A stretch of 64,000 nucleotides of DNA from Aurantiochytrium sp. KH105 (taxonomy: Eukaryota > Sar > Bigyra > Thraustochytrida > Thraustochytriidae): positions 62,001 to 126,000 of the forward strand of contig BGKB01000184.1 in assembly GCA_003116975.1 (NCBI GenBank), given 5' to 3'. Within the stretch, counting starts at the first letter, position 1. Each line of letters starts with the position of its first letter. Positions 56,498 through 64,000 of the stretch are shown piece after piece. The position numbers and the translations under genes were made by a program. The notes under the pieces are model-generated. The model did not search any database and was not told the DNA's origin. It saw only the letters and a program-made list of their open reading frames with translations.

Positions 56498-57625
56498 TTA
56501 GAGGTTCTTGGTGTTGTGGATGACAAGCTGCCTGAACAGGCTCCCGGTCTGCTGGAGGTGCGCGAGCTCTCCTTTCATCTTTTTAAGACTGGCTTCGAGG
56601 GCGGCGATTTTGGTCTGGGCAGCGTTGAGGTCAGACTGGAGTTCCCGAGACCGCTCTTCAGAGATAGAACGCTGTCTCTTCGCCTTCTCGAGCTCGTTCT
56701 CGAGGTCCGCATAGCTGCGCTTGAGACCGGAAGTCTTCGTCAGGCGGGCCTGAGCTGCCGTTGAAGAGAACGATTGCCGACGCGGGGGGTTGGACCGCGT
56801 CGCCGGAGGAGACATGGCAGGACTTGTCGGAGAGGCAAACGAGACCGAGGTGGACGAACGGCTAGCGCGGGCGCGTTGGCCTCCTTGCGAAGCGGTCGCA
56901 GCGGTACGTTGCACAGTGAAGCGCGTGATCATCTTCCTTTCGTTTGTCTTTCCGCAATTTTGAAAAACTCTTTCAAGGCTCGTGATCATGAGGGGAATTC
57001 CGCTTTGCTCGAGGGCAGCATTCCAAATCCCACGGAACTCCTCTGGATTGCTTCCGGCGCCAGTGATGTACCCGCATAGGGTTCCACTTGAGATCTTCTG
57101 CGAATTCTTGTTGAGTTTAATGGAAGGACCATCTTTTTTCGACTTGAAGTAAAGACTTTTCCCCTTTCCCCCATTCTTCGGAGAACGCACTGTACAAAGT
57201 TCAGAGTCTTTACCTTCCGGAATTTCCTCTCCAATGGCTGTGGTATATTCCACGAGATAAGCGTCTCGCTTCTTCCTTTCTTTCTGGTTGCTCACCATGA
57301 TCGTCTTCTCTTTGACGACCTTTTGCCCGCTCGACCTGTACGTGGATGCCCCGCCATCATTGCCAACATAGTCCCCGTCAGCGTCATCATCGTCGTCATC
57401 GTCGGCCTCCTCGTCCTCATCGACGGCCTCCTCGTCCTCATCATCGTCCTCGTCGTCTTCACCGACACGGTGGTTGTCGTTGTCCATGGCGCCATCGGTA
57501 TCATCACTTGTAGAAACGTCGCGCAGAGCCTCTCTCTTGTCCTCCTCGTCAAACGCCGCTCTGTTCCAATCGCTCGTCTCCTTCACCTCCTCGCCGTCAT
57601 TCAGGATGACAACCTCGTGGGCCAT
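56498..57625 (-). CDS. acidic / globular / coiled-coil family protein, member P3
   Basis: 375 residues starting MAHEVVILNDGEEV. It has an Asp/Glu run at about 45-95, then a domain at about 145-245. Key pieces are GKSLYFKSKKDGPSIKLNKN, SQKISSGTLCGYI, EEFRGIWNAALEQSGIPLMI and MITRFTVQR. A Ser/Pro linker (STSVSFASPTSPAMSPPATR) leads to a C-terminal coiled coil of about 65 residues (YADLENELEKAKRQRSISEE, IAALEASLKKMKGELAHLQQ). The N-S-x-K-I-S and I-W-N-x-A-L blocks match the gene at 60640 and, less well, that at 38846. An upstream TTG extension is Arg/Ala-rich and not used. Function unknown; composition suggests a nuclear protein. First of three tandem minus-strand members. Confidence 0.75.
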   Translation of the reverse strand: MAHEVVILNDGEEVKETSDWNRAAFDEEDKREALRDVSTSDDTDGAMDNDNHRVGEDDEDDDEDEEAVDEDEEADDDDDDDADGDYVGNDGGASTYRSSGQKVVKEKTIMVSNQKERKKRDAYLVEYTTAIGEEIPEGKDSELCTVRSPKNGGKGKSLYFKSKKDGPSIKLNKNSQKISSGTLCGYITGAGSNPEEFRGIWNAALEQSGIPLMITSLERVFQNCGKTNERKMITRFTVQRTAATASQGGQRARASRSSTSVSFASPTSPAMSPPATRSNPPRRQSFSSTAAQARLTKTSGLKRSYADLENELEKAKRQRSISEERSRELQSDLNAAQTKIAALEASLKKMKGELAHLQQTGSLFRQLVIHNTKNL

Positions 57626-57832
57626 CTTGCTCGCTTCTTGTCCGTCTCGCTTCGTTCTCCAAGCCGGTTTCCTCGAGCTCGTTCGGGGTCTGCTGCCCGC
57701 TGCCGCTTCGGCCAGCCAGCCTCGCCAGCCATCACGCCCCTCCCTGACGGCGCCCGCGCGCGCGCGCAAGGACAGTCTGAAGTTGAGAGCAAGAAGTCGA
57801 GAGCAAAGTTGAGAGCGGGTGTTCTTGGAAGT

Positions 57833-57902
<70 letters not shown>

Positions 57903-58334
57903 AGCGGGTGTGCGATCGGGAGCGGCCGCAGCTCATTGGGAGCGGCCGCAGCTCATCGGGAGCGGCCGCAGCTCATCGGGAGCGCGGACGAGGGCGCGTG
58001 CGGTGCTCTCTCATGGGCTGCCATCGGGAGACGGAGGACACGCACGCAGAGGAGAGCGCTTTGCCTGGTGGGAAAGAAAGTGCTCGTCGTGAGTTGGGTG
58101 CAGTCCAGCGGGAACTCCGGCGTCAAGTTAGCAGGGAAAGATCTGGGTGATGGACGCGGCACGTGCGGTCTGCATGAATATGTGCCTACCTGAATCATGG
58201 CGTTCCAGGGCATGTATGATGGAACGATTGCGTAGGATACGCTGGTGCGGGGATATCAAGTCCAAGGCAAGGGTCGGGAAAGAAAAGAGACAAAATGCTG
58301 GCCGTCATTCTTGCGTTGCGTAGGTTCATGAAAT
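57626..58334. other. P2/P3 spacer with microsatellite and duplicated 3' flank
   Basis: Holds the P3 promoter and the P2 3' region. In order: a GACA tract, three 20-bp units GGGAGCGGCCGCAGCTCATC (57918-57977), then the shared duplicated segment from 57971. No gene. Confidence 0.55.
57833..57901. repeat. (GACA)17 microsatellite
   Basis: Uninterrupted GACA units, about 69 bp. Sits directly before three 20-bp NotI-site-containing repeats and the edge of the segmental duplication. Confidence 0.97.
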
Positions 58335-58803
58335 TTATTCGAAAAAGCGCTGCAAGCCTTTATAGGTCTTCTGCTGAGATGCTCGGCGAACCTCTTGCAA
58401 TACTTCCTCTTTTTTTTGGACTTTGTTCTGAGCAGCTCTTTCCATTGCAGCAATGGCCTCCCAAGTGCTCTTCGCTCTTGCGAGCTTTTCCTCGAGGCAC
58501 TTGCATTGCTGATTATGAGATTCGAGTTCGGCACGCAAGCGTTCCAAGTTCACCTTCGCAGCTTTCAGCTCTTTTTTCTTTTCGCGGATTTTTTGGAACT
58601 CACATTTCACTAGCTGCAGCACTCTGGTCTGTCCTTCGTCCTCCTCGTCGTCCTCCTCGTCGTCCTCCTCTTGGAGTGACGAACTCTTGCTCCTTTCGAC
58701 GAGTCGGCTGTTTGATGCAGCATCAGGAGCCTCCTGGCGTCGTGAAATCGAAGCTGTCCCGGAAAAGCTTGGGGATGTCGTTGAAACAAAGAGAAGATGT
58801 CTC
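57971..58803. repeat. segmental duplication, copy 1 (P2 3' end)
   Basis: 833 bp matching 60268-61108. I count about 16 substitutions and one 8-nt indel, so about 98% identity. It covers about 156 codons of the P2 C-terminus, the stop and about 360 bp of 3' flank. Homology stops abruptly within the coding region at 58803 (after GAAGATGTCTC). Confidence 0.92.
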
Positions 58804-59852
58804 GAAGTGTTCGCGTCGCGCGAAGGTACGCTTGTTGAGGTCGAGCCAGATTGACCAGACGCCTTCAGTGTTTCCATCGAGGAACTACTTGAAGACGCTT
58901 TTCTTTCGGGGCTTGCCCAGCCCTGAAGCGTTCGCGCTGCTACATCGCTGGTCTTGACATAAAAACTCATACTCAAAGTGTTCCCACCGGCCAGATCGAG
59001 CTTGCCCTTTGTGATGCGAAAATTTGGCGGATATCTCATTTTCTTGATGGCGTCATTCAAGACCTGCTTAATGCTGGCGCCAGTCCACATACCATGATTC
59101 CCCGCGAGGCAGCGGAAAGCTTGGACGATGAGCTCAAAGGAAACGCCGTGGGCATCGAAAATCGACGGGGGAATGCGTTCCCCGTTCAGCTCGAGTATCC
59201 ACTTTTTTCTCACCAACGCTGTTGGAGTTTGCGAAGATGCCGCTTCGCGATTCTTTAAACGCACATGCATCAACTTCTCTTTTTCCATGTACTTGTCGAG
59301 GGAACTCAGGAACCTCTTGAGATCTCGCAGCGACTGCTCGGGTGTACGCGAGTTGGCATTTGCCGAATTTTTCTTTTGAGCTACCTCTGTGCATTGTCCG
59401 CTTGAGCCGCTCGCATCAGCTTTGCTTGTTATTTGCCGCTTCTGCTTCTCCTCCAGCGCCGTTGCAGTCTGGCGGAATCCTTTTGCTTTCTCAGATCTTA
59501 CGCGCTCGGGTGTGCCTTTCCCGATATTTGCACGCTGAAAACACTTCGAGACATCAATTCGGACGTCTTCGTCTCGAGGGTTCTCTCCGATGGTGCTCTC
59601 GTTCTCCCTGCGAAGACGCTTTGGGGCTTGCTGACCTTCGCCAGGTCCAGCGGCTTCAGAGTCGTCATCGTTGTTTGCGTCTCTCCCGCCTCTCTTGAGC
59701 TGATCTCTCGGTCTGCTCTCTGTATCCACGGTCTCTGTCGAGCTTTCGTAGTTCTCGCCGTTATCCTGCGTAGCATCATTTGCGACGTCGTCGTTTCCGT
59801 CGCCGGTGGCGACGCTCGCCACCTCGTCGACCTCGTCTGCGAGCCCCGCCAT
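58335..59852 (-). CDS. acidic / globular / coiled-coil family protein, member P2
   Basis: 505 residues starting MAGLADEVDEVASVATG. The N-terminal 150 residues are Asp/Glu/Asn/Thr-rich with a basic cluster (APKRLRREN). A helical stretch (RDLKRFLSSLDKYMEKEKLM) precedes the domain at about 215-305 (KKWILELNGERIPPSIFDAH, VSFELIVQAFRCLAGN, FRITKGKLDLAGGNTLSMSF). The domain is the most divergent of the family: L-N-D-A-I replaces W-N-x-A-L. The Ser-rich linker and Glu/Asp patch lead to the coiled coil (FQKIREKKKELKAAKVNLER). The last 155 residues are almost identical to those of the gene at 60640, while the rest is not. Function unknown. Confidence 0.75.
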   Translation of the reverse strand: MAGLADEVDEVASVATGDGNDDVANDATQDNGENYESSTETVDTESRPRDQLKRGGRDANNDDDSEAAGPGEGQQAPKRLRRENESTIGENPRDEDVRIDVSKCFQRANIGKGTPERVRSEKAKGFRQTATALEEKQKRQITSKADASGSSGQCTEVAQKKNSANANSRTPEQSLRDLKRFLSSLDKYMEKEKLMHVRLKNREAASSQTPTALVRKKWILELNGERIPPSIFDAHGVSFELIVQAFRCLAGNHGMWTGASIKQVLNDAIKKMRYPPNFRITKGKLDLAGGNTLSMSFYVKTSDVAARTLQGWASPERKASSSSSSMETLKASGQSGSTSTSVPSRDANTSRHLLFVSTTSPSFSGTASISRRQEAPDAASNSRLVERSKSSSLQEEDDEEDDEEDEGQTRVLQLVKCEFQKIREKKKELKAAKVNLERLRAELESHNQQCKCLEEKLARAKSTWEAIAAMERAAQNKVQKKEEVLQEVRRASQQKTYKGLQRFFE

Positions 59853-60639
59853 CGCGCTTGCCGCTCGCTGGCTGACTATCCTCCCTGCAAGCCGCGACGC
59901 ACGCGAGCGCGGGTGCTCTCCGCTTCGACTCGCCTCGCCTCGCTTCGCGCCTCCGTGCAGACTTCGCCGGGCCAGGCTCGTCGTCCTCCTCGCTTCGATC
60001 GCGGTCTGTTGCTCCTGCCGCGAGAGCGCGGCTCGTTCTCGTGAGAGCGCCCTGAGAGCGAGGGTACAAAGTCAATCGGTCTCCAAGGAGGAGAACGGGA
60101 CTCGCGCGCATGGCGACGACTGGGACGTTATGGAGGCGGTGGGGGGCGCCATGCATCAATGATGAGCAGGGGCACGCACGTGGGTTGTGGTTCTGGCGGG
60201 GCGTTGACAGTGACTTGGTTGAATCGCAGCAAAAGGGATCTGGCATGCCATTCGATGCGCGGCCGGCGCTCATCGGGAGCGCGGACGAGGGCGCGTGCGG
60301 TGCTCTCTCATGGGCTGCCATCGGGAGACGGAGGCCACGCACGCAGAGGAGAGCGCTTTGCCTGGTGGGAAAGAAAGTGCTCGTCGTGAGTTGGGTGCAG
60401 TCCAGCGGGAACTCCGGCGTCAAGTTAGCAGGGAAAGATCTGGGTGATGGACGCGGCACGTGCGATCTGCATGAACATGTGCCTACTTGAATCATGGCGT
60501 TTGTTGGCTGCAGGGCATGTATGATGGAACGATTGCGTAGGATACGCTGGTGCGTAGATATCAAGTCCAAGGCAAGGGTCGGGAAAGAAAAAAGACAAAA
60601 TGCTGGCCGTCATTCTTGCGTTGCGTAGGTTCATGAAAT
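59853..60639. other. P2 promoter and P4 3' region
   Basis: From P2 start to P4 stop. The right part (60268 on) is duplicated sequence. A continuous minus frame at about 59776-60570 reads through but crosses duplicated non-coding DNA and P2's start, so I treat it as chance. Confidence 0.5.
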
Positions 60640-61108
60640 TCATTCGAATAAGCGCTGCAAGCCTTTATAGGTCTTCTGCTGAGATGCTCGGCGAACCTCT
60701 TGCAATACTTCCTGTTTTTTTTGGACTTTGTTCTGAGCAGCTCTTTCCTTTGCAGCAATGGCCTCCCGAGTGCTCTTCGCTCTTGCGAGCTTTTCCTCGA
60801 GGCACTTGCATTGCTGATTATGAGATTCGAGTTCGGCACGCAAGCGTTCCAAGTTCACCTTCGCAGCTTTCAGCTCTTTTTTCTTTTCGCGGATTTTTTG
60901 GAACTCACATTTCACTAGCTGCAGCACTCTAGTCTGTCCTTCGTCCTCCTCGTCGTCCTCCTCGTCGTCCTCCTCTTGGAGTGACGAACTCTTGCTCCTT
61001 CCGACGAGTCGGCTGTTTGATGCAGCATCAGGAGCCTCCTGGCGTCGTGAAATCGAAGCTGTCCCGGAAAAGCTTGGGGATGTCGTTGAACCAAAGAGAA
61101 GATGTCTC
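60268..61108. repeat. segmental duplication, copy 2 (P4 3' end)
   Basis: 841-bp partner of 57971-58803. The only indel is 8 extra nt near 60500 (TTGTTGGCTG region). In the coding part six of seven codon differences change the amino acid, plus a TAA to TGA stop change. Confidence 0.92.
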
Positions 61109-62157
61109 TGGCGACTTACTGGCGTTTCTACGGGCGCACGAGGGTGATTTTGAGGCTCAGATGAGAGAGACACCAAACTGGCTCGGTTGCTTGATGGAGT
61201 AGTTGTGTGGATGACGCGCACAACAACAAAGGACGTAACCTTGGTAATCTTCTTCTTCTTCCCACGCTCTTCCATTCTTGTCTCGAACTCCTCGATTCGT
61301 AAACAACTACCCTTGTTAGCGAGTGCATTGTTCCAGAGCTCAACAAAATTCTCTCCTTGGGACTCCGCGTCGTCGATGTAATCGCGGAATTTCTGATTGG
61401 ATATCTTCCGGCTATTCTGACGGAGTACGATGGATTCTTTCTTGTTTCCCAATGTCCGATAGAGACTCTGTCCACCTCCTCCTTTCACTGGAGGGCTCAG
61501 CTCGAATCTGGCAGAGCTGATTTCTGCCAGAACTTCTTCTTTGATGGCGCAAGCGAACTTGAAAAGAAACTTATCTCTGTCGAGTGCATCCGCGAAATCG
61601 ATGTCGTCTTCGTCTTCTTCATCAGCATCCCTGTCCGCATCTCCATCTTCGGCAGCTCCCTGACAGTGGCGCCTGAGGTCATCGCGAGCCTTAGCCCCGG
61701 CTGACACGGAGGGAGCAGAGTTTCTCTCAGCGATCTCCTCAGCCAAAGCTCCCGATCTCGCTGATGCTAATCCTTCAGAATGGCCATTTTCACTATGTTT
61801 CCACCATTCTGTCGATGATTGTTGCTCTTGCTCTACCATCATCGCTGTTTGCTTTCTTCCCTTCGTCTTCGCAGATCTTTGGCGCTTGATGGACCTCTCG
61901 TTGGTGTTTTTGTCATCCTCCGGACGATGACGCTTTACAGCATCCGCTCGGGCATCTTTGTTGCCGGCATTATCGTCTTTGTCTTCCGCTCCTCTTTTCG
62001 ACTTGTTCGTCTCATTTCGCGCGTCCACGTTGTTCACCTCGTCCACATTGTTCTGAGTCCTTGAATTTGAGGTCTCGTCATCGACATAATCCTCGCCTTC
62101 ATTCTGCGTTGGAGCCGTTGCAACCCAGTCTTCATCGGACTCGTTCTCGCTCTCCAT
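60640..62157 (-). CDS. acidic / globular / coiled-coil family protein, member P4
   Basis: 505 residues starting MESENESDEDWVATAPTQNE. Acidic, Asn/Asp-rich N-terminus with basic clusters (NERSIKRQRSAKTKGRKQ). The domain is at about 200-325: FKFACAIKEEVLAEI, GGGQSLYRTLGNKKESIVLR, NSRKISNQKFRDYI, FVELWNNALANKGSCLRIEE, VTSFVVVRV. It is clearly closest to the gene at 56498. The linker, acidic patch and coiled coil are shared with the gene at 58335. About 40 codons upstream of the ATG stay open in frame (RPRFAGRAAANRKLQEVIVE) with coding-like composition but no ATG. An AG acceptor-like TGTAG precedes them, so an upstream exon is possible. Function unknown. Confidence 0.75.
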   Translation of the reverse strand: MESENESDEDWVATAPTQNEGEDYVDDETSNSRTQNNVDEVNNVDARNETNKSKRGAEDKDDNAGNKDARADAVKRHRPEDDKNTNERSIKRQRSAKTKGRKQTAMMVEQEQQSSTEWWKHSENGHSEGLASARSGALAEEIAERNSAPSVSAGAKARDDLRRHCQGAAEDGDADRDADEEDEDDIDFADALDRDKFLFKFACAIKEEVLAEISSARFELSPPVKGGGGQSLYRTLGNKKESIVLRQNSRKISNQKFRDYIDDAESQGENFVELWNNALANKGSCLRIEEFETRMEERGKKKKITKVTSFVVVRVIHTTTPSSNRASLVSLSSEPQNHPRAPVETPVSRQRHLLFGSTTSPSFSGTASISRRQEAPDAASNSRLVGRSKSSSLQEEDDEEDDEEDEGQTRVLQLVKCEFQKIREKKKELKAAKVNLERLRAELESHNQQCKCLEEKLARAKSTREAIAAKERAAQNKVQKKQEVLQEVRRASQQKTYKGLQRLFE

Positions 62158-63172
62158 GATACTCTTGACCTCTTGGTCGTTGTCTGGGTTATCTGTCGGT
62201 CTTAAGTTCCTCCTGATTTCAACAATTACCTCTTGCAGTTTGCGATTTGCTGCCGCTCGTCCGGCGAATCTCGGTCGTCCGTTATATGCCTACATGTGTC
62301 ATGATTTTGACTTTTGTGACAGCACGGCCATGGCCTTGCTTCTGGGAAGAAAGACACTCCAGCTGCAAGGGAAAAACCACTCTCTCGTCAAATGACAGCG
62401 AGAATTCTTGACATTCACCGTGCAAGCCGACAGTTGAGAAAAAATGGATTTTTTCGCTTGACCCTCTCAATCGCAGTTGTCGTCAAAGGAAAGAGCACTC
62501 CACTTTTCCAGCTCTACTTTCATGATCACACGATCCTCCTTGGATGCCTTGCTTGGCCCATTCTCTGCTAAACCCGTGTTTATCGAATCGCAAATTTCGG
62601 TCGTCAGTCAGACGTGCCTGAAGTCGAAAACTAGCAAATTGGACAAGCAAAGCGTCCAAGGACGAAAGTGTGATCGGTGAAGTGCAACTGGGAAAGTGGA
62701 TTGCGAGTTCATTTGACGACGACTATGCTTGACAGGGTCAAGCGCAAAATCCATTTTCTCGACAAGGGCGTGCACTTCAAATATCATGATTTTGTAGCAT
62801 TCGGTTGACAATAAGAGTGACTCCTTCTTTGCAGCACGCGTCCTTGTCTTTTCGGAAGCAAGGTCGTCGACGCGCTGTCATATCAAAGGACATTTCGTGA
62901 CACAGGGAGGCAGCACAAGCCTTGTTTTCATTATTTTATTTTCGGTCACGTGAAGAAGAGAGGGGGGGGGGGGGGTCTCATTTCCCCCCCTTCCTTCACG
63001 TGCTTTTCTTCCTCTTCGTTGGACCACGCTCCCTGTCAGGAGACGTGAACAATTGGTCCAGCGGCAGGAAGCTCGAGCCGCTGCTACTCGCTTGCTTCCC
63101 ATTCACTCGAGTTGGCTGGTCCGGTCACGAAAACTCATAACCCACTTTTTATTTAGAGGAGCATCTATTTAT
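62158..63172. other. spacer between P4 and P5
   Basis: Contains the possible upstream exon of P4 (about 62158-62278), then lower-GC DNA without a supported gene. A homopolymer hairpin lies at 62947-63002. Confidence 0.45.
62947..63002. repeat. G-run/C-run inverted repeat
   Basis: CACGTGAAGAAGAGA followed by about 14 G on the left; 7-8 C followed by TTCCTTCACGTG on the right. The arms are complementary apart from small gaps, with a TCTCATTT loop. The G-run alone could form a G-quadruplex or triplex. Confidence 0.85.
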
Positions 63173-64000
63173 TTATCTTTGCTTCTGCATTTCTTCATCA
63201 GCGCGCTGACGTTTCGGAGACGCGTCCGAGGTCTCGCCGCTGTTGTCAGTGGCATCTTGTTCTTGACGAGGGCGCTTCTTATCCTCGCCGACGCGAAACA
63301 TATGCGCCCTGACATCCTCAAACTTATTCACTCTGTCTTGAAGGTACTCGATTTCAGCTTTCAAATCGCTGTTCTCTTTGCTGAGACGCTTGTTGTCGGC
63401 TTTCTCTTGGGTGACTGCAGCTTTCAAGCCGCTGACCTCGGCTTCCAGCCGGCTGACCTCAGCTTTTAATTGGGTCTCGCGCGCGTCTTTTTCATCTTGG
63501 AGATCCTTGTTCTTCTTCTCGAGTTCCGCTTTCTTGGTGCGAAGCTGTTTTATGGTGGCACAATCAATCTGCCTCTCTTGGGCAAGTTTCTCGCGCGAAG
63601 CCACAAGAGCTGACATTTCCTTCTCAAGGAACTCCATGGTTCGTCTCAAAGAGTCATTGACCGAGAAGTCTGTAGGCAGAATTCTCGCGCCGGTGAATCT
63701 TGCCGGTCCAGTTCTCCGAGCCGAAGAGCTCACGGACTCAACTTCAAAAGCAGCTGTGGCATCTGGGTCAACATTCAACGTTTCGCCGGCAGTCGTCAGA
63801 GAGTTCTCCGTGCTGGTCAAGGTGGCCTTGGTCGCTTCAGGGGTGCCGCTGGACGTCGCTGAAGATTGCGATGTGGCCGGAGGCGGCGAAGTGATCGTCG
63901 GTTGCGACGTGACAGTAGGCGTTGATGTGACGGTTGGCTGTGATGTTCCTGCAGGTTGCGTGATGCCCGCAGGCTGCGATGCAACCGTGGGCTGCGATGC
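63173..64000 (-). CDS. Ser/Thr-rich coiled-coil protein, probable family member P5, 5' end outside window
   Basis: The minus frame is open from the right edge (275 visible residues and a stop), so the true start lies beyond the window. The visible N-terminal part is a Thr/Ser/Pro/Gln linker with repeated SQPTVTS units. A helical coiled coil of about 110 residues follows, with heptads such as LRRTMEFLEKEMSALVASRE, LEKKNKDLQDEKDARETQLK and LEAEVSGLKAAVTQEKADNK. The C-terminus is polar and basic (EDKKRPRQEQDATDN, SPKRQRADEEMQKQR). Linker plus C-terminal coil, orientation and position next to P2-P4 suggest a fifth member of the same family. The globular domain would lie outside the window, so this is unproven. 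Confidence 0.65.
   Translation of the reverse strand, partial: ASQPTVASQPAGITQPAGTSQPTVTSTPTVTSQPTITSPPPATSQSSATSSGTPEATKATLTSTENSLTTAGETLNVDPDATAAFEVESVSSSARRTGPARFTGARILPTDFSVNDSLRRTMEFLEKEMSALVASREKLAQERQIDCATIKQLRTKKAELEKKNKDLQDEKDARETQLKAEVSRLEAEVSGLKAAVTQEKADNKRLSKENSDLKAEIEYLQDRVNKFEDVRAHMFRVGEDKKRPRQEQDATDNSGETSDASPKRQRADEEMQKQR

Follow-up and report, generated by a model that had tools for sequence, protein, structure and literature searches.

Gene complement and protein layout

The window analysed in the current work is a 64,000-nucleotide stretch corresponding to bases 62001-126000 of contig C184, and genome searches covered the 76-Mb assembly of 367 contigs; coordinates without a prefix are window positions, those prefixed by "C184:", "C28:" or "C48:" being contig positions. 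Three minus-strand ORFs, P3 (56498..57625, 375 aa), P2 (58335..59852, 505 aa) and P4 (60640..62157, 505 aa), lie next to one another and are followed by the C-terminal 275 aa of P5 (63173..64000, minus strand), an ORF that is open at the window edge and carries linker repeats, a coil and a basic tail. The full P5 ORF encodes 878 aa and runs on into the adjoining contig sequence, in which its core is located beyond the window edge (C184:126604-127002), a position that the earlier note had missed. The remaining ORF of the family within the window, P1 (38846..40081, plus strand, 411 aa), lies at a distance from this cluster. All five had been put forward as genes (P5 as a probable one), which the length of the ORFs and the in-frame indels described below bear out.

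For P1 and for every gene of the cluster there is a syntenic counterpart on contig C85 (P1 and P3 being represented there by alleles), and the distance between P1 and P3 is approximately 16.5 kb on both contigs. Considering that all family genes of the window have syntenic partners there, C85 is read as the second haplotype. The host is read as a diploid thraustochytrid closely related to Hondaea fermentalgiana, the source of the database protein nearest to P1. A bacterial, plasmid or viral origin of the window was ruled out, as the neighbouring genes resemble ordinary eukaryotic-type genes; judged by eye, we take these to encode a TPR protein, an elongation-factor-like, a decarboxylase-like and a PDZ/PH-like protein.

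Three further members, not reported in the earlier note, are present on other contigs. P1b, located on contig C66 with a likely allele on C42, is 57% and 55% identical to P1, respectively, while P6 and P7 constitute a second tandem pair (C28:572853-576061) whose members are 50% identical and whose flanking genes have a single copy each in this assembly. In both haplotypes P1b stops at the same TAG, thereby losing the homologous end of the coil. The family thus amounts to at least eight loci, P2 counted, among the best candidates scored in the genome search, and is divided here into group I (P1, P1b, P6 and P7) and group II (P3, P4 and P5), P2 having the family layout and a core without detectable relationship. 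The P5 core also matched weakly, over 47 residues (E 0.0015), within a frame of 95 residues at C48:391795.

The architecture previously ascribed to the five genes of the window, with an acidic N-terminus, a linker rich in Ser and Thr and a tail of coiled-coil type, was recovered by charge, composition and heptad score. In all of the 14 sequences analysed the N-terminal part has a negative net charge, between -7 and -49, whereas the net charge of the core lies between -2 and +12, i.e. close to neutral or basic, with P6 slightly acidic (-2). Ser and Thr make up 25-40% of the first 60 residues past the core. The tail heptad score of nine proteins, a simple home-made measure applied to the last 110 residues or, for P5, to a hand-chosen stretch of 120 residues, was matched by 0 to 11 of 1000 shuffles. 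Clusters of the type K-[KR]-x-[KR], which are pattern counts without a chance control, are found N-terminal of the core in P1, P2, P4, P5 and P6 (5/8 members), in the C-terminal part only in P3 and P7, and not in P1b. Between P6 and P7 the protein sequence of the linker (dN 0.21, dS 0.89) has changed less than that of the coils (dN 0.63, dS 0.96), which suggests that a short functional motif may reside in the linker of this pair.

Several repeats were observed in and around the cluster. The gap between P4 and P5 contains a 626-bp imperfect palindrome (62287-62912; 67% between strands), which is present in both haplotypes and for which a DNA search of the genome returned no other match. A minisatellite of the T-S-Q-P-T-V type, with 54-base steps, occupies the P5 linker from 63867 to 64000 and onward past the edge, and varies in length between the haplotypes by blocks of 36 and 144 bases, both of which keep the frame. 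Upstream of P3, a CAGA tetranucleotide tract (57833-57901) is found at which the haplotypes differ in length by 52 bases.

The core domain and its relatives

The core, of approximately 120 residues, was delimited in P1 (39299..39682, plus strand, residues 152-279) by the profile match between groups I and II, and in P3 (56897..57280, minus strand, residues 116-243, including a few flanking residues) and P4 (61204..61590, minus strand, residues 190-318) by profile comparison; the corresponding stretch of P2 is 58944..59348 (minus strand, residues 169-303). The core profiles of group I and group II align with a score of 36.3, which is reached by none of 200 column-shuffled controls (shuffle maximum 19.9), and within the groups the scores are 60.6 for P1+P1b against P6+P7 and 48.7 for P3+P4 against P5, each reached by 0/100 shuffles. 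By these profiles, the cores of P1, P1b, P6 and P7 are homologous to those of P3, P4 and P5. When the two parts of group II were compared separately with group I, P3+P4 alone scored 29.5 (shuffle maximum 18.0) and P5 alone 22.0, over 17 columns (shuffle maximum 18.2); because P5 alone scores only 22.0, the link between the groups is carried mostly by P3 and P4.

The single globular core that had been attributed to the five family genes of the window is hence upheld by profile for P1, P3, P4 and P5 but not for P2. The P2 core did not rise above the shuffle level, its scores against group I, against group II and against the two combined being reached by 98, 103 and 38 of 200 shuffles, respectively, so that its homology to the other family cores is not detectable at profile level. 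P2 is tied to the family by a weak N-terminal match to P4 (E 0.008), by its layout and by its position in the array, and by nothing else; a 146-residue stretch enclosing its core is 99% identical between haplotypes. The W-N-x-A-L motif that had been proposed as common to the cores follows a similar pattern: it is present in P1 (WNRAL), P3 (WNAAL) and P4 (WNNAL), takes the form WNSAI in P5 and is absent from P2, which lacks the W (LNDAI). The N-S-x-K-I-S motif given for P3 and P4 is present in both sequences.

The predicted order of elements is the same in the cores of P4 and P1, H-E-E-[E or H]-H-H-E-E, at modest confidence and with one extra short helix in P1; the single-sequence model of the P1 core has a pLDDT of 64.7, and the model of P4 reached 79.9 in the best of five runs, the only one of the five to be good. 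Neither P1 nor P4 gave a fold match at E 0.001 or below, the N-terminal domain of PilB/GspE/VirB11-type secretion ATPases being a structural neighbour without a match at that level, and a viral structure library searched with P4 likewise yielded none (best 0.0074).

In agreement with the earlier failure to recognise a known family, no existing domain model was found for the core in Pfam or the PDB. A Pfam scan of seven of the eight cores (P7 was left out) reached no gathering score, the one weak match among these being Rpn3_C in a single core (E 0.15), and the best PDB sequence matches of queries A1 and A3, to a deoxyribose-phosphate aldolase (E 0.0079 over 47 positions) and at E 0.62, were taken as chance. 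Pfam matches below threshold were obtained for P1, P3 and P5, mostly in the tail, and align with coiled-coil regions of diverse proteins. The C-terminal coil also recalls bZIP (PF00170), part of which is matched by P5 (E 0.0028); however, the C-terminal 275 residues of P5 attain 18.2 bits against a curated cut-off of 27.6, and the match spans profile positions 25-61 of 64, missing the start of the model, which is where the basic region of the bZIP model lies. The family furthermore differs from bZIP by an extra predicted alpha/beta core upstream of the coil, and bZIP_1 was not found among the Pfam matches of P1, P2, P3 and P4.

A family search among relatives, performed in the protein database, returned proteins of Hondaea and no others. 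The P1 core retrieved one match among 76 candidates, from Hondaea, the P3 core none among 54, and a full-length family profile at least three proteins, all from Hondaea, among 7993 candidates scored. Because this search depends on five-residue words in common and on comparable length, distant or differently sized relatives may escape it; the P3 orthologue, contained in a 666-residue model just above the length limit, was missed with the P3 core and found with the full-length profile. The nearest database protein to P1 is FCC1311_031422, an apparent orthologue without functional name that is 94% identical and differs at 25 of 411 residues from the C184 allele and at 11 from the C85 allele. FCC1311_031362, likewise without functional name, is this 666-residue model; it is apparently orthologous to the stretch P4-P2-P3 and combines P3 with the P2 core and the beginning of P4. 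Similarly, in the Hondaea model called "zinc finger CCCH domain-containing protein 50" an apparent P1b orthologue makes up the C-terminal part and is joined to a CCCH zinc-finger gene. FCC1311_031362 and the CCCH-P1b models (P0002, P0003) are read as annotation fusions of separate neighbours, though they may be real fusions. The truncated P1b copies on C66 and C42 and model P0003 share their final residues. In the literature on Hondaea, thraustochytrid genomes and lineage-specific families the family was not met, at the level of the opening lines of abstracts.

Divergence between haplotypes and the tail of P4

Alignment of the two haplotypes revealed 15 indels within P3, P2, P4 and P5, all of which (15/15) are multiples of three, as compared to 10/30 between genes, 20 of these 30 originating from the space between the TPR gene and P3 (Fisher p 1.2e-5). 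Two end gaps (at the TPR gene and at the far end) were left out of this count, as were 19 rows in the copied tract described below (60255-61110), because P4 is there non-homologous between haplotypes. Since all 15 genic indels preserve the frame, the genes are considered real; P1, which was outside the indel alignment, has gap-free haplotype copies.

Across P1-P5, with P4 counted up to residue 318 only, pN between haplotypes is 0.037 (208.5/5644 sites) and pS is 0.065 (104.5/1610), as opposed to a pN of 0.0032 (13/4024) and a pS of 0.053 (64/1217) in four neighbouring genes. Non-synonymous divergence is thus approximately 11-fold that of the neighbours at similar synonymous divergence, the excess being protein change. 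Synonymous divergence is itself somewhat raised in P4 (0.110) and P5 (0.085) relative to 0.053 (Fisher p 0.0035 and 0.0084, respectively). Together with the tandem arrangement and the Hondaea-only matches, the high pN sustains the clustered, fast and lineage-specific evolution that had been proposed, the restriction being apparent within the searches made.

Haplotype dN/dS is 0.45 for P1, 0.53 for P2, 0.51 for P5 and 0.49 for P1b, and the paralogue pairs P1/P1b and P6/P7, both with a dN/dS of 0.68, keep open frames at dS values of 0.39 and 0.57, the P1b stop excepted. The P2 core is constrained (dN/dS 0.09) and the P4 core moderately so (0.25), constraint on whole genes being moderate. Constraint cannot be claimed part by part, because P3 (1.07), the N-terminal part of P4 (0.85) and the P5 core (3.3; one synonymous and 11 non-synonymous changes) depart from this. 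The P5 core and the P3 coil (0 synonymous, 13 non-synonymous changes) changed only or mainly in protein; these numbers are small and positive selection is not claimed.

A different kind of change was found at the end of P4. On C184, the tract 57962..58803 (minus strand), encompassing the end of the P2 linker, the coil and the 3' flank, is 96.9% identical over 850 columns to 60259..61108 (minus strand), which spans the corresponding parts of P4. No such tract pair is present in the 20 kb of C85 compared, where the linker of P4 ends differently and leads into another coil; outside the cluster, a genome search with this C85 coil gave at best weak matches (E 0.02 or higher). The P2 tail is the same on both haplotypes, and its C85 version aligns at 91.4% with the C184 P4 tract; in protein, the C184 P4 tail agrees with P2 of the same haplotype at 149/155 residues and with P2 of the other haplotype at 138/150. 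The simplest reading is that approximately 850 bp of P4 were replaced in frame from P2 on the C184 lineage, the direction being deduced from the fact that the P2 tail is shared by the haplotypes and the P4 tail is P2-like on C184 only. As the order of the flanking genes is conserved on both haplotypes, we infer conversion and not unequal exchange. The tail shared by P2 and P4, as judged from these alignments, is a recent haplotype-specific copy and not inherited architecture, a distinction that escaped the earlier note. Considering that the copy, and the P4 tail as such, is known from the assembly alone and that P2 adjoins P4, P2 sequence may have been misplaced into P4 during assembly; this is very improbable, as the P4 tail matches neither P2 allele exactly (96.9% for the same and 91.4% for the other haplotype) and small indels separate it from P2.

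Possible role and diversification of the family

The reading we favour, at a probability of about 0.5, is that of a lineage-restricted coding family of at least eight loci, P2 counted, whose probably nuclear, coiled-coil-dimerising proteins diversify by duplication and tail exchange. The acidic N-terminus would resemble activation or histone-contact regions, the small, mostly slightly basic alpha/beta core would likely be a binding module, and the Ser/Thr linker would lead to a coil that chooses the partner, nuclear entry and dimerisation both being suggested by sequence features. Tandem duplication would enlarge the family, its members diversifying quickly, and copying between neighbours would pass coil and 3' flank in frame, as seen at assembly level for P4, where the swapped tail would alter partner or regulation.

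The main rival retains the orphan family but places it in the cytoplasm, as a coiled-coil scaffold or adaptor of, for example, the ectoplasmic net or cytoskeleton, with the acidic and basic stretches merely disordered. We regard this as possible but distinctly less probable: sub-threshold Pfam matches of the tails point to proteins that are often cytoplasmic, ATG16, ADIP and HAUS1 among them, and P3 and P7 have C-terminal basic clusters only and P1b none, but the coil matches are non-specific and under every curated cut-off, and 5/8 members have basic clusters N-terminal of the core (a count without chance control). It is unlikely that the genes are young or decaying duplicates of little function, under weak constraint and with a neutral conversion as the origin of the P4 tail. 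Such decay would fit the narrow distribution, the P1b coil shortened by a stop in both haplotypes and the dN/dS of P3 (1.07) and of the N-terminal part of P4 (0.85), but is opposed by the in-frame state of 15/15 indels, by frames that are open at paralogue dS of ~0.4-0.6 with a dN/dS of 0.68, and by the haplotype dN/dS of the P2 (0.09) and P4 (0.25) cores. More speculative still, and improbable, is a diversity-generating recognition locus in a little-studied protist group, likened to a mating-type or compatibility locus, at which the coils of tandem nuclear proteins would choose partners and conversion would make both haplotypes of a diploid cell differ in dimerisation specificity.

Returning to the favoured reading of a diversifying, probably nuclear family, it belongs to a known kind, that of fast-evolving lineage-specific families, and the haplotype-specific exchange of the tail is its most distinctive part. 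The core points to a domain for which the searched libraries have no model, the family, with its very fast protein change, has so far been seen in one protist lineage only, and two public Hondaea gene models are suggested to join separate genes. P4 provides an assembly-level case of coil exchange between tandem paralogues in one haplotype only, and if the coils set partner choice, the rewiring of interactions by gene conversion would be directly testable in a culturable protist.
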